Below are positions 2,442 through 50,854 of a DNA stretch of 64,000 nucleotides, piece after piece (the first letter of the stretch is position 1; the number at the start of each line of letters is the position of its first letter). The notes beneath the pieces are model-generated. The model made no database searches and had not been told where the DNA came from. It was given only the letters and a program-made list of their open reading frames with translations. Where the stretch lies: contig JAOAUZ010000001.1 of NCBI GenBank assembly GCA_025464625.1, positions 289,183-353,182 of the forward strand. Direction: 5' to 3'. Both the position numbers and the translations under genes were made by a program. Origin of the DNA: Rickettsiales bacterium. Lineage in GTDB: Bacteria > Pseudomonadota > Alphaproteobacteria > Rickettsiales > SXRF01.

Positions 2442-3185
2442 ATGAAAAAAATTATTGTTGCCAACTGGAAAATGTGTGGAGATAGCAAAAGCACTAGGCT
2501 TTGGGCGCAGACTTTTCTTAGCAATTTTTCAAAAACTCCAGATAATGCCGAAATTGTTGTCTGTCCGCCTGCGCCTTTGCTTGCTCTATTGAAAGATGTT
2601 TTGAGTGGTTCGAAGGTTCATATTGGTGGGCAGGATTGTCATACTAAGCCAGAAGGTGCTTATACTGGCGAAATAAGCGCGAATATGTTGAAAGACGCTG
2701 GTTGTGGATATGTTATAGTAGGACATTCTGAGAGACGCTCATATTGTGGTGAAACTAATAATATAGTGTGCAGTAAAGCTGCAATTGCCATAAAAACTGG
2801 TTTAATTCCAATTATTTGCATCGGCGAGACTGTGCAGGAGCGTTCTGCTGGCAGAACTCTTGATGTTATCAAACAGCAAATTGAGGAATCTATCCCCCCA
2901 GAAGCGCGAGAAGGCAATTTTATTCTTGCATATGAGCCTGTTTGGGCTATTGGTTCTGGCAACTTACCAACAATGGACGAAATAAGGCAGGTTCATACGG
3001 CTATTATTGCGAATGTTTCTAAGCGCATGGCTATTGATATTATGAAAGTTCCAGTGTTATATGGCGGTTCAGTAAAACCAGATAATGCAGGTGAAATTTT
3101 AGCTCTGGCTGAGGTTTCAGGTGTGCTGGTTGGTGGAGCGAGTTTGAAGGCGGATGATTTTTGTAGGATAATTTTGTCAGTGTAA
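2442..3185 (+). CDS. tpiA: Triosephosphate isomerase
   Basis: 247 residues, the normal length for a TIM barrel. It interconverts dihydroxyacetone phosphate and glyceraldehyde-3-phosphate in cytoplasmic glycolysis and gluconeogenesis. The N-terminal ANWKMCGD carries the active-site Asn and Lys, VVGHSERR holds the catalytic His, YEPVWAIG the catalytic Glu and flexible loop, and YGGSVKP the phosphate-binding segment. It heads a plus-strand run tpiA-secG-pyrG with short gaps, a common alphaproteobacterial order. A hairpin repeat ends directly upstream of the start, so the promoter is either upstream of or inside that repeat. Confidence 0.97.
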   Translation: MKKIIVANWKMCGDSKSTRLWAQTFLSNFSKTPDNAEIVVCPPAPLLALLKDVLSGSKVHIGGQDCHTKPEGAYTGEISANMLKDAGCGYVIVGHSERRSYCGETNNIVCSKAAIAIKTGLIPIICIGETVQERSAGRTLDVIKQQIEESIPPEAREGNFILAYEPVWAIGSGNLPTMDEIRQVHTAIIANVSKRMAIDIMKVPVLYGGSVKPDNAGEILALAEVSGVLVGGASLKADDFCRIILSV

Positions 3186-15339: not shown

Positions 15340-15377
15340 TGTTTATGGCTCGTTTAATTCAGTGAAAAGGAAAAATA

Positions 15378-15490
15378 CCCTCTCCCTCTGGGAGAGGGTT
15401 AGGGTGAGGGTTTATCAAAATACTTGAAACAAAAGACAAATCATCTTTAATTACAACGCCCTCACCCCGCCCTCTCCCAGAGGGAGAGGG
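15378..15490. repeat. Palindromic repeat, CCCTCTCCCTCTGGGAGAGGG family
   Basis: The terminal arms CCCTCTCCCTCTGGGAGAGG (15378) and CCTCTCCCAGAGGGAGAGGG (ending 15490) are each palindromic and complementary to one another, separated by inner arms containing GGGTGAGGG and CCCTCACCCC. A second copy sits inside ileS at 44189-44274 with a shorter centre. The element lies between ilvD and the gene at 15573 and has no coding content of its own. Confidence 0.88.
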
Positions 15491-15572
15491 AGAAGATCTG
15501 ATAGCGTTTACTTATAAAATATTTTTGAAGATTAGCAAGCGTGGCTTTGCTATATTTACGGAGAAATTCCTA

Positions 15573-36721: not shown

Positions 36722-36806
36722 GCGGTCGTGGCGGAATTGGTAGACGCACCACCTTGAGGTGGTGGCGGGGCGACCCTTGGAAGTTCGAGTCTTCTCGACC
36801 GCACCA
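36722..36806 (+). tRNA. tRNA-Leu (anticodon GAG)
   Basis: A class II tRNA of 85 bases with encoded CCA. Acceptor GCGGTCG pairs with CGACCGC, then A and CCA. Anticodon stem CCACC/GGTGG with loop TTGAGGT gives GAG. A long variable arm (CGGGGCGACCCTTG) and T loop GTTCGAGTC are present. A hairpin repeat begins 4 bp after its 3' end. Confidence 0.97.
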
Positions 36807-36810
36807 CTTA

Positions 36811-36914
36811 ATACTCATTTGATTTAAGTTTTCCACTTCGTCAGGCTTCGGCTCATGTATTAGTTATACACGTCGCCTCGCCTTCCTTGTGGAATTCCTT
36901 TCTCAAATGAGTAT
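36811..36914. repeat. Hairpin repeat copy 4, directly after tRNA-Leu
   Basis: 104 bp with perfect 12-base ends ATACTCATTTGA and TCAAATGAGTAT. The interior closely matches the copy at 2057-2162 and its inner stem is TGTA/TACA around TTAGTTA. Its place 4 bp past the tRNA suggests it could form the 3' trailer hairpin of the tRNA transcript. Confidence 0.85.
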
Positions 36915-36938
36915 TGTAATATGTAAATATTAATAAAC

Positions 36939-42072: not shown

Positions 42073-45000
42073 TTAATTAGAAACGGAAAAAGCGATGGTT
42101 ATTTTGTTATTATCCAGTTCATTTTCTACACTGTAAACAGGTTTTTCTGGTGCAGATTTTAGCAGATCACTGGTGAGTGTTTGCTCCATTATATAATCTT
42201 TATTGGCAGAGATTGCTGACATAATTTTTTCTTCAGCTCCCAGATATAATTTTATCTTGTCGGAAACATCGAGATTAGCATCTTTGCGGGCTTGCTGGAT
42301 CATCCGCACTACGTCACGGGCGATGCCTTCTGCTTCCAGCTCAGGGGTGATGGTAGTGTCTAAAATCACCAGCGCATCATTGGTGGAGAGAGCCTGCGCA
42401 CGGTCTTTATATTCAGGTTTTGGTTCAAGCTGTAAAACATATTCACTTGGCAATAATTTCTCACCGCAAATTTCTACGCTGCCATCTTCCAATTTTTTCC
42501 ATTCACCTTTTTTAGAGGCGGGTAAAATCTGTTTCATTTGTGCGGGTAAACGCTTGCCTAGAACGGCAGAGTTTATGGAGAGTTTAAGGGTGGCGTATTT
42601 GCTGGTATCACTTCCAGTTGCAATGGTTTTTACGTTTATTTCATCACTAATTATTTCACCCAATTTGCCATCATAATTTCCACCACCAATAATAGTAAGT
42701 GTTTGTAGCGGTTGGCGTACACGGATATTCAGTTTGTTGCGGATGGCTAATCCTGCATTACAAGCATCACGAACTTTATCCATAGACCATATCAATGTGT
42801 CATGTGCCACATCGTTTGTGTCAATTTTGTTGATGGTTGGGAAGTTTGCAAGGTGCATGCTTTCTTCGCCTGTTAGATTTTTATAAATTTCCTCGCAGGT
42901 AAGGGGAAGGAGAGGGGCAGCAGCACGGCACATGGTGGTTAGCACGGTGTATAGTGTGTCATAAGCGACTTGCTTGTCAGCGTCATGTTCAGATTTCCAA
43001 AAACGTTCTTTATTGCGGCGGATATACCAGTTATTCAGCGCATCAAAGAATTGTAAAACTGCTTCGCAGGCAGTGGGTGTATCGTAAACGTTCAAGGCTT
43101 TTTCAATTTCTGAAATTGCACCATTACATTTGGCGAGAATATATCTATCCATTATGTTTCTGTCATCCCGAGCTTGCCGAGGGATCTTAGACCCTTCGAC
43201 TTCGCTCAGGGTGACAAGTTCAGCCTTCACCCCATCCGCATTAGCATATAACGTAAAAAAGTTATACGCATTCCAGATTGGTTTTATGGCAAGGCGCACT
43301 ACGTCACGGATAAATTTTCCTTCAGGGTCAACCATCAGGTCTTGCCCCCGCATCACGGGTGAGGCGATCATCAGCCAGCGCAGCGCATCCGCCCCGAATT
43401 GGTCGATAACTTCCATCGGGTCTTTATAATTTTTCAGGCGTTTGGAATATTTTAAGCCAGTTTCTGCATCCAGCACCACACCATGACAAATACAATTTTT
43501 GAACGGGATTTTGTCAAATAAAGCAGTGGAAAGCATAATCAGCGTGTTGAACCAGCCCCGAGTTTGCCCGACATATTCGGTGATGAAATCAGCAGGGAAA
43601 TGTTTTTCAAACCAGTCTTTATTATCAAATGGGTAATGCACCTGCGCAAAGGGCATTGAGCCTGATTCAAACCAGCAGTCAAACACGTCTTCCACACGGG
43701 TATATATTTCGCCATCTTTAGTGATGGTGATTTCGTCGATATATGGGCGGTGCAGGTCTTTTACTTTTTTGCCGCTTAATTCTTCTATTTCGGCGATGCT
43801 TCCACAAACTATGATTTTCCCAGATTTACTGCGCCACACAGGTATCGGCGTTCCCCAAAAACGGTTGCGGGAAATGCTCCAATCGGGCGCGGTTTTCAGC
43901 ATATGCCCCATCTGCCCGTCGCGGATATGTTCTGGTATCCAGTTTATCTGCTGATTAAGTTCGGCGGCACGGTCACGGAATTTTGTCACCTCCACATACC
44001 AGCTCGGCATAGCGCGGTAAATCAACGGTTGGTCAGTGCGCCAGCAATGCGGATAGTTGTGTTTGATTTGTTCCTGTTTTATGAGTTTGCCAGTAGCTTT
44101 TAGATATTCAATAATCCTATCATTAGCCAAACCAAACTTACTGCCACCAGCTTCGGCTATGACGTTGAGTCCTTTGAGGCTTAAAACTCCCTCTCCCTCT
44201 GGGAGAGGGGTGGGATGAGGGCTAGTGGAAGATGAGGTAGAACCCTCACCCAACCCTCTCCCAGAGGGAGAGGGCTTAAAGGTAATATCAAAAATCTCAT
44301 CAGTGTATTTTCCTTGTCCGTCTACAGGGCAGACCAGTTCAATTCCGTTTTTCTCACAGCATTTTTGGTCGTCCTCACCAAAAGCAGGGGCGAGATGCAC
44401 GATTCCTGTGCCGTCACCATCCGTCACGAATGATGAACCATCAAGGATGCGGAAAGCTCTTTTGTCATCTCGAACGTAGTGAGAGATCTTGTCATTATTA
44501 TTTTGTAAAGATCCCTCGACTTCGCTCGGGATGACAGATGCACGGTCAGCAAAATAAGGGAAGAGGGGCTTGTAGGTGAGACCGATTAGGTCGGACGATT
44601 TTATTAACGGTAATTCTTCTACATACTTTTCATTAAAATCCATTTGCGCCGAAAGTCCGGATTCAGTTTTGTGGACAAAGTCGTAAAGTGATGGAACAGC
44701 ACGGTAGCGCGCGCAAATATAACCAATGTTATTATTGATAATACATGTGTATTCAACCCCTTTACCCACCCCCAAAGCCAGATTGCTTGGCAATGTCCAT
44801 GGTGTTGTTGTCCACGCTAATACATAATATTTTTCTGCGTCAGGTGCGCCTTTGGGTTTTTCATTTAGCTCAAACGCCACGGTTATCGCTTTATCTTCTC
44901 TTTCCCGATAGCTGTTATCCAGCTTGGTTTCAAAGTTGGAAAGAGGAGTTTCGGCTGCCCATGAATATGGCATAACGCGGTGGGCTTCAAAAATTAGCCC

Positions 45001-45537
45001 TTTATCGTAAAGCTGCTTGAACGCCCACAGCACCGATTCCATAAAATTAATATCCATGGTTTTATAGTCATTTTTGAAATCAACCCAGCGAGCTTGGCGG
45101 GTGACATAATCCTCCCATTCGGCGGCGTATTTCATCACATTGGCGCGGCAATGCTCGTTGAATTTATCTATACCGTAATTTTGGATTGCCAAACGCCCCG
45201 AAATCCCTAATTCCTTCTCGCTACCCATTTCGGCGGGCAGGCCGTGGCAATCCCAGCCAAAGCGGCGTTCCACCCGCTTGCCCTGCATAGTTTGATAGCG
45301 GGCAAACACGTCTTTTACGAAGCCTGTCAGCAAATGCCCGTAATGCGGCAACCCATTGGCAAAGGGTGGACCGTCATAGAAAATAAACTCGTTATTTTCG
45401 CCTGTCGCGCTAATGGATGGGCGATTTTCCACTGATTTTTCAAATGTTTTATCATTTTTCCATGATTTTAGAACTTCCTTCTCAATGGCAGGAAAATCAG
45501 GGTTTGGGTTCACTTCAGGATAATATTTTTGTGACAT
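42073..45537 (-). CDS. ileS: Isoleucyl-tRNA synthetase, eukaryote-like type, with three repeat inserts
   Basis: 1154 residues, longer than common bacterial IleRS (about 930-960) and than eukaryote-like bacterial forms (about 1030-1090). The HIGH box is PPFANGLPHYGHLLTG; the KMSKS box reads KYSKR at about 694, with Tyr for Met. Overall pattern (RRFGWDCHGLPAE, MPYSWAAETPLSNFE) is the eukaryote-like class, many of which resist mupirocin. Three in-frame inserts derive from repeats: about 334-359 (VIPSEVEGSLQNN), 422-450 (SPSGRGLGEG to LPEGEG) and 774-792 (LSEVEGSKIPRQARDD). The first two lie in the editing (CP1) region, the third before the anticodon-binding domain. Confidence 0.95.
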   Translation of the reverse strand: MSQKYYPEVNPNPDFPAIEKEVLKSWKNDKTFEKSVENRPSISATGENNEFIFYDGPPFANGLPHYGHLLTGFVKDVFARYQTMQGKRVERRFGWDCHGLPAEMGSEKELGISGRLAIQNYGIDKFNEHCRANVMKYAAEWEDYVTRQARWVDFKNDYKTMDINFMESVLWAFKQLYDKGLIFEAHRVMPYSWAAETPLSNFETKLDNSYREREDKAITVAFELNEKPKGAPDAEKYYVLAWTTTPWTLPSNLALGVGKGVEYTCIINNNIGYICARYRAVPSLYDFVHKTESGLSAQMDFNEKYVEELPLIKSSDLIGLTYKPLFPYFADRASVIPSEVEGSLQNNNDKISHYVRDDKRAFRILDGSSFVTDGDGTGIVHLAPAFGEDDQKCCEKNGIELVCPVDGQGKYTDEIFDITFKPSPSGRGLGEGSTSSSTSPHPTPLPEGEGVLSLKGLNVIAEAGGSKFGLANDRIIEYLKATGKLIKQEQIKHNYPHCWRTDQPLIYRAMPSWYVEVTKFRDRAAELNQQINWIPEHIRDGQMGHMLKTAPDWSISRNRFWGTPIPVWRSKSGKIIVCGSIAEIEELSGKKVKDLHRPYIDEITITKDGEIYTRVEDVFDCWFESGSMPFAQVHYPFDNKDWFEKHFPADFITEYVGQTRGWFNTLIMLSTALFDKIPFKNCICHGVVLDAETGLKYSKRLKNYKDPMEVIDQFGADALRWLMIASPVMRGQDLMVDPEGKFIRDVVRLAIKPIWNAYNFFTLYANADGVKAELVTLSEVEGSKIPRQARDDRNIMDRYILAKCNGAISEIEKALNVYDTPTACEAVLQFFDALNNWYIRRNKERFWKSEHDADKQVAYDTLYTVLTTMCRAAAPLLPLTCEEIYKNLTGEESMHLANFPTINKIDTNDVAHDTLIWSMDKVRDACNAGLAIRNKLNIRVRQPLQTLTIIGGGNYDGKLGEIISDEINVKTIATGSDTSKYATLKLSINSAVLGKRLPAQMKQILPASKKGEWKKLEDGSVEICGEKLLPSEYVLQLEPKPEYKDRAQALSTNDALVILDTTITPELEAEGIARDVVRMIQQARKDANLDVSDKIKLYLGAEEKIMSAISANKDYIMEQTLTSDLLKSAPEKPVYSVENELDNNKITIAFSVSN
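43161..43216. repeat. In-frame palindromic repeat in ileS (third insert)
   Basis: The ends are TGTCATCCCGAGCTTGCCGA and TTCGCTCAGGGTGACA. About 56 bp, the shortest copy of the TGTCATnCCGAG family here. On the ileS strand it encodes LSEVEGSKIPRQARDD in the link between the catalytic core and the anticodon-binding domain. Confidence 0.88.
44189..44274. repeat. In-frame palindromic repeat in ileS (second insert), CCCTCTCCCTCTGGGAGAGGG family
   Basis: It has the same terminal arms as the intergenic copy at 15378-15490: CCCTCTCCCTCTGGGAGAGG and CCTCTCCCAGAGGGAGAGGG. The centre is shorter. On the ileS strand it reads SPSGRGLGEG, a Ser/Thr-rich centre and TPLPEGEG, placed in the CP1 editing region. 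Confidence 0.9.
44463..44536. repeat. In-frame palindromic repeat in ileS (first insert)
   Basis: The ends are TGTCATCTCGAACG and CGCTCGGGATGACA, with interior GAGAGATCTTGTCATT and AAAGATCCCTCGACTTC. It encodes VIPSEVEGSLQNNNDK on the ileS strand. It shares the peptide SEVEGS with the third insert, showing common origin in the same reading phase and orientation. Confidence 0.9.
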
Positions 45538-50782: not shown

Positions 50783-50854
50783 TGTCATCCCGAGCGCAGT
50801 CGAGGGATCTTTGCAAGAATAATGTAAAGATTTCTCGTTTCACTCGAAATGACA
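50783..50854. repeat. Palindromic repeat, TGTCATnCCGAG family, between corA and argG
   Basis: It starts TGTCATCCCGAGCGCAGTCG and ends TTCACTCGAAATGACA, with inner AGGGATCTTTGC and GTAAAGATTTCTCG. It is intergenic, between the corA start and the argG stop. It shows the whole unit found in shortened form in folKP and ileS. Confidence 0.88.

Follow-up and report, generated by a model that had tools for sequence, protein, structure and literature searches.

In-frame inserts in the ileS gene of a Rickettsiales bacterium and a putative mobile element with a DUF559 nuclease gene between hairpin ends

How does an essential gene come to carry three repeats within its reading frame, and what brought them there? 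The question is raised by a stretch of 64,000 nt (the window) from contig JAOAUZ010000001.1 of a Rickettsiales bacterium, in which ileS, the gene for isoleucyl-tRNA synthetase (IleRS), holds copies of two repeat families, here called A and B. For the second insert, of family B, the answer is probably that it is a non-autonomous derivative, similar to a miniature inverted-repeat transposable element (MITE), of a small mobile element of ∼420–560 bp in which one DUF559 gene lies between two hairpin ends inverted relative to each other. Inserts 1 and 3, of family A, recall instead the repetitive extragenic palindromic (REP) sequences of the CGTC type. The features concerned are as follows.

42073..45537, minus strand: ileS, isoleucine--tRNA ligase, 1154 aa, open, carrying all three inserts
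44463..44536, minus strand: insert 1, family A, a CGTC-REP-like dimer of 74 nt that reads SVIPSEVEGSLQNNNDKISHYVRDD
44189..44274, minus strand: insert 2, family B, hairpin, 21-nt spacer, and inverted hairpin, 86 nt, at ileS site alpha
44243..44274, minus strand: first hairpin end of insert 2, CCCTCTCCC-TCT-GGGAGAGGG followed by the inner GGGTGAGGG
44189..44221, minus strand: second hairpin end of insert 2, inverted
43161..43216, minus strand: insert 3, family A, a short copy of 56 nt that reads VTLSEVEGSKIPRQARDD

Are these segments truly insertions? The open reading frame (ORF) at 42073–45537 matches the IleRS profile TIGR00392 (E 2.7e-253), and no second ileS is found among the best 5 of its 13 protein matches in its own genome, which are ileS itself, three partial matches (25–36% identity), and one match confined to the repeat (62%, IleRS residues 421–459, contig C3). 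The inserts were defined by alignment with the IleRS of 27 related genomes. At each of the three sites insert-free homologues occur in same-genus and same-family genomes, and the initial annotation, which had placed three in-frame inserts at these positions, is thereby borne out. Chance is not an adequate explanation, because family A has 49 matches genome-wide and family B has 46. The former are 49 separate intervals; the latter, counted on both strands, reduce to 27 intervals, with 30 exact hairpins found by pattern (three duplicates were dropped, as locus L001 overlaps the window). The same annotation had put the gain at about 75 residues with the frame kept each time. The frame is indeed open, but none of the lengths (74, 86, and 56 nt) is divisible by three, and the net gain, counted by hand on the alignment with the clean same-genus homologue G001, is 71 codons: 26, 31, and 14 for inserts 1, 2, and 3, the last being 14 nt below the length of the insert 3 unit. 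Since these gains differ from the insert lengths, the bases next to the inserts must have changed too.

What, then, is insert 2? The family B unit is a hairpin, CCCTCTCCC-n-GGGAGAGGG, with the inner GGGTGAGGG, which occurs alone or as inward-facing pairs. A profile search of this genome gave two DUF559 (PF04480) genes, and both are flanked on each side by inverted family B ends of ∼35 nt. Insert 2 has these ends too, set 21 nt apart, and it is for this reason that it is read as a gene-less derivative of the DUF559 units. One of the latter, L056, is a 429-nt unit lying in frame inside a YkuD ORF. When this site was aligned with 12 other genomes, nine proved clean and one, G007, had the unit; in G004 a solo hairpin with another sequence is present, and in G009 the stretch is slightly altered.

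The layout recurs well outside this genome. In a survey of named loci, the best 80 of 570 DUF559 loci, ranked by similarity to the copies of this order, were taken, and three were left out for their short flanks. An inverted repeat scoring at least 16 spans the DUF559 gene in 62 of the remaining 77, versus 5 of 548 same-size placements elsewhere in the same loci, one of which scored 42.5. The units have a median length of 464 bp (10th to 90th percentile, 419–564), and by their record titles the loci extend beyond Pseudomonadota to Nitrospira, Clostridia, and candidate phyla. The viral contigs scanned gave 24 DUF559 loci, and phages two weak matches. A separate observation concerns L242 of Sinorhizobium sp. 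K101, where a double hairpin (2861–3010) next to the DUF559 gene resembles RIME elements and is present many times over in Rhizobiaceae replicons.

Do hairpins and enzyme travel together? Among 131 genomes of the order, those with at least two hairpins comprise 31 with and 10 without a strong DUF559 match, and those with fewer than two comprise 7 with and 83 without (Fisher 6e-15; within-family permutation, 0 of 20000). For the REP-associated transposase RAYT (Y1_Tnp, PF01797) the corresponding figures are 11 with and 30 without at two or more hairpins, and 14 with and 76 without below that number (p 0.15). The hairpins thus track DUF559, not RAYT, and RAYT was rejected as the mobilizer because a search for PF01797 gave no match in the window's own genome. 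Y1_Tnp matches are numerous in two other genomes of the order, 30 in G026 and 13 in G115, with in-frame stops in most of those listed for the latter.

Perhaps the most unusual trait of these units is where they reside. The listing for the order holds 66 DUF559 matches, of which 11 partial ones were excluded. The open frame that holds the match is at least 250 aa long in 38 of the 55 full-length cases (median 702), and in 27 of the 48 ORFs scanned a host profile is found on both sides of the DUF559 domain. The two-sided hosts are IleRS (10), PriA (4), ValRS (3), Mfd (2), and, once each, RecG, DnaE, HolC, ITPase (Ham1), LipB, EarP, Sua5, and YkuD; the two Mfd cases have identical DUF559 sequences and probably come from one organism. 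The other 21 ORFs include one-sided RecO, Pth, a second RecG (at a contig end), a second DnaE, and an HsdS-like case, as well as ORFs with no host hit. The Pfam scan of 40 nested ORFs gave no intein or splicing domain. In genome G010, sister nucleases (support 98/94) lie in two unrelated genes, holC and lipB, and these copies share ∼440 nt of DNA homology that starts and stops at the hairpins; BLAST found no homology outside them. Two loci from Binatia and Nitrospira (L109 and L118) have sister nucleases, and in both DUF559 is close to the end of an ORF that also carries type I restriction specificity domains.

Site alpha, where insert 2 resides (IleRS residues ∼418–452 of the window), deserves a closer look. 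In the 16 same-family genomes, 7 of the 12 readable ileS genes carry an insert here, of four or five kinds: hairpin types in the window and G010, a full DUF559 unit in G007, and three different REP-like repeats (G003; G005; G008 and G012). Full units at this site also occur in G033, G085, and G081, which belong to three other families, and a second site, beta (residues ∼266–312), holds full units in G025, G042, G105, and G130. In the DUF559 tree, built on 105 columns and with many weak forks, no two of the four alpha-site nucleases (L040, L055, L211, L225) are sisters; L225 pairs with the beta-site L222 (99/86), and the beta group (L043, L209, L212, L222) needs four changes for its four rows. 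The exception to this scatter by site is given by the YkuD nucleases of G000 and G007, which are sisters (100/97) and share their site. To account for insert status at alpha, the ileS tree requires six changes, at least five of them forced. With nucleases so scattered and these forced changes, site alpha has been filled repeatedly, or filled and then lost. A single ancestral insertion was rejected on the same changes and on the differing kinds of insert, and L207 was dropped from the alpha-site cases as its DUF559 sits in an odd stretch. The recurrence that the initial annotation had proposed thus holds, both at this site and in the 14 identified genes of the genome that host family A or B in frame.

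Three further observations concern the same sites. Inserted alpha alleles often have DI-P-F before the insert and VLSL after it, where clean alleles have DLPDLSL instead. L031 (G019) carries inside IleRS, at alpha, a domain that by eye is a GNAT-type acetyltransferase, and in L209 (G105) a Pfam Acetyltransf_3 domain lies inside IleRS besides the DUF559 unit.

What kind of enzyme is encoded? A profile of 14 DUF559 domains matches the structures 3hrl (1e-36) and 3r3p, 'mobile intron protein' (E 2.9e-4). The predicted fold (predicted local distance difference test, pLDDT, 86.6) matches 3r3p, titled homing endonuclease I-Bth0305I catalytic domain, with a template modeling (TM) score of 0.80 by target, and E. 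coli Vsr (1vsr) with 0.53. Profile and predicted fold mark DUF559 as a nuclease of the Vsr/PD-(D/E)XK type, with I-Bth0305I as a relative. The nested copies look intact, because six acidic or histidine positions (E15, D44, E55, D57, H61, and D67) are as good as invariant in nested as in free copies, being kept in 49 of 49 rows labeled as nested and in at least 71 of 72 free ones.

How might such a unit move? The nuclease would act on the hairpin ends or on the target, host repair might copy the unit into the break, and gene-less derivatives such as insert 2 could be mobilized in trans. In-frame residence would be mainly a filter, since the nuclease itself supplies the long open frame that runs through the unit: the insertions to survive would be those in the sense direction, in the right phase, and in tolerant loops of essential genes. 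IleRS residues ∼418–452 may be such a loop, and a nested unit would occupy a niche like that of an intein, without splicing.

The observations on which the MITE-like reading of insert 2 is based are the layout itself, the ends common to the DUF559 units and to the solo and paired hairpins of this genome, the spread over many phyla, the in-frame nesting, and, in G010, the end of homology at the hairpins when two copies from unrelated genes are compared. Several points weigh against it. Neither excision nor a new insertion was observed, and no target-site duplication either; compared with clean homologues, the insert borders show no clear one. The named loci were picked by similarity and are not a random sample; 15 of the 77 never reach a score of 16; and flanks are shared between species in seven Dyella/Rhodanobacter, three Bradyrhizobium-like, and three sphingomonad loci and also in Azospirillum. 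Several free-standing copies thus look vertically inherited, and the 77 loci are not independent. Two candidate empty sites failed: the aligned Sinorhizobium record lacks part of the DUF559 gene and is a partial deletion, and on the Azospirillum plasmid the region is conserved in 7 of 7 large matches. When the ends of each unit were compared with those of other genomes for their occurrence in the flanking DNA, the signal was weak, own ends lying above the median in 41 of 62 loci and ranking best or second in 13 of 62. Among the strong-DUF559 genomes, 7 of 38 are without this hairpin pattern (G025 and G033 have ends of other sequence); conversely, 16 of the 47 hairpin-bearing genomes are without strong DUF559, four of these with 26–67 hairpins. 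Finally, a Caulobacter DUF559 protein has been proposed to act in mismatch repair, according to an extract of PMC12907096.

Could the three inserts be ordinary repeats of the type of REP or Rickettsia palindromic elements (RPE), moved by a foreign or as yet unrecognized transposase, with DUF559 a passenger that landed between hairpins because these attract insertions or serve for recombination? The part of PMC3733652 consulted describes REPs lying within replication, repair, and tRNA genes, and CGTC-type REPs with no known transposase; the 16 of 47 hairpin-bearing genomes without strong DUF559 suit this idea as well, and nothing connects inserts 1 and 3 with DUF559. A passenger is nevertheless unlikely to be flanked by inverted hairpins as often as the named loci and their controls indicate, to have its homology end at the hairpins on both sides, or to be the partner that the hairpins track across genomes in preference to RAYT, and this explanation is accordingly regarded as rather doubtful. 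Homing would have the nuclease cut the empty allele at one site and gene conversion spread the unit, giving one lineage per site across species. The kinship with I-Bth0305I, the sister YkuD copies of G000 and G007, and the filling of alpha and beta in several taxonomic families suit this idea, which is nonetheless improbable given the lack of sisters at alpha, the pairing of an alpha with a beta nuclease, the four changes in four beta rows, and the many unrelated hosts; as the main mode, site-specific homing was rejected on the scatter of the ileS-site nucleases over the tree. As for selected domestication, in which IleRS or other hosts would benefit from a regulatory or nuclease function of the inserts, the reuse of one ileS site in 7 of 12 same-family genes and the conserved catalytic-type residues of the nested copies are what one would predict. 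Such a function sits so poorly with different kinds of insert at the same site and with at least five changes of insert status on the ileS tree that it can hardly be credited.

Several known systems come close to the proposed MITE-like derivative of a DUF559 element. Bacterial MITEs are like insert 2 in having inverted ends but no gene, and in that the genome also contains a gene-bearing relative whose ends are the same; for insert 2 no target-site duplication is established, and the related unit encodes no classical transposase. With REPtrons (RAYT plus REP) the likeness is in a nuclease gene between inverted hairpins and many solo hairpins in the genome, whereas the enzyme here is DUF559 rather than a Y1/HUH transposase, and the units frequently lie in frame within genes. 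Homing endonucleases and inteins share the related nuclease fold and the residence inside conserved essential genes; unlike them, the DUF559 unit has hairpin ends, no splicing domain was seen, its sites are many and unrelated, and same-site copies do not form one clade.

Inserts 1 and 3 pose a different question. Rickettsiales is the order of the RPE, some of which belong to the CGTC-type REP group. Such REPs have, in the portion of PMC3733652 available, a terminal CGTC tag that is often TGTC, an AT-initial stem, and a mostly alphaproteobacterial distribution, with no known transposase; in-frame insertion of REP or RPE into unrelated, often essential genes is likewise known from parts of PMC3733652 and PMC10969869. 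Inserts 1 and 3 agree in being short palindromes in frame, with ends TGTCA...TGACA and, by eye, AT-initial stems, TGTC-ATCCCGAG...GAGGGAT (one arm of insert 3 starts TGTCAC). As for the unpaired tail, which in CGTC-type REPs fits CCA, inserts 1 and 3 show CT or CTTT after the stem. Insert 2 differs from CGTC-type REPs and RPE in its CTCCC...GGGAG hairpins, its G-rich inner tail, and its nuclease-bearing full-length relative. No connection of family A to DUF559 was found, and inserts 1 and 3 belong to a separate family, CGTC-REP/RPE-like in sequence, a typical copy of which is TGTCATCCCGAG...GATCTTT...AAAGATC...CTCGGGATGACA. Further copies of both families lie in the window outside ileS:

50783..50854, strand not assigned: family A copy
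15372..15492, strand not assigned: second family B hairpin pair, inward-facing like insert 2

Is there selection for a readable phase, as had been suggested? The in-frame hosts of family A are ileS (twice), truA, queA, lnt, a polyA-polymerase-family gene, and an NAD synthase gene; those of family B are ileS, hisC, murD, cbiB, a cobC/cobD-like gene, recG, glyS, a UDG-family gene, and ykuD. In favor of the suggestion, all seven family A copies with at least 60 open codons on each side and an identified host read one phase, and the SEVEGS peptide noted earlier in two inserts is indeed common to inserts 1 and 3 in the same phase. An ORF outside that set but equally open on both sides, L097, reads a different one, however, and family B uses five of the six phases in this genome. 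Such phase use fits a filter that retains any open phase; unit lengths are evenly spread modulo three (10, 10, and 12 of 32 copies). The proposed placement in loops or linkers fared similarly: it agrees with alignment gaps against solved IleRS chains, insert 1 lying in what we take to be the CP1 region and insert 3 presumably directly before the anticodon-binding domain, whereas for exposure the single-sequence fold of the window IleRS reaches only pLDDT 34.6 (predicted TM score 0.26).

Why does it matter? Bacterial genomes commonly contain short palindromic repeats, a large group of which has no known mobilizing enzyme, as stated in the section of PMC3733652 seen. If DUF559 moves the CTCCC/GGGAG hairpins, a Pfam family of 'unknown function' would gain a role and a new minimal type of element, one enzyme and two hairpins, would be added to those described. 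Repeats in aminoacyl-tRNA synthetase and in replication and repair genes could then be explained as survivors of in-frame insertion in tolerant loops, and so could the odd annotations of DUF559-fused IleRS, PriA, and RecG. A link between DUF559 and hairpin ends was not found in the portions of the open-licence PubMed Central literature covered, subscription papers being outside that scope, and the word DUF559 is absent from PMC12306157, on REPs. The broader proposal is of a widespread bacterial class of elements, driven by a single-domain DUF559 nuclease of Vsr/homing type that acts on REP-like hairpin ends, which would be the source of many CTCCC/GGGAG palindromes of Pseudomonadota and would persist as an in-frame extra domain in essential enzymes; here the balance is about even.

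Other repeats of the window stand apart from these families. A 117-nt direct repeat, 88% identical, is found at 2058–2174 and 36811–36927, the latter copy directly downstream of a tRNA-Leu gene (36722–36806), and at 2281–2426 there is a 48-nt inverted repeat, 77% complementary, with arms 50 nt apart.

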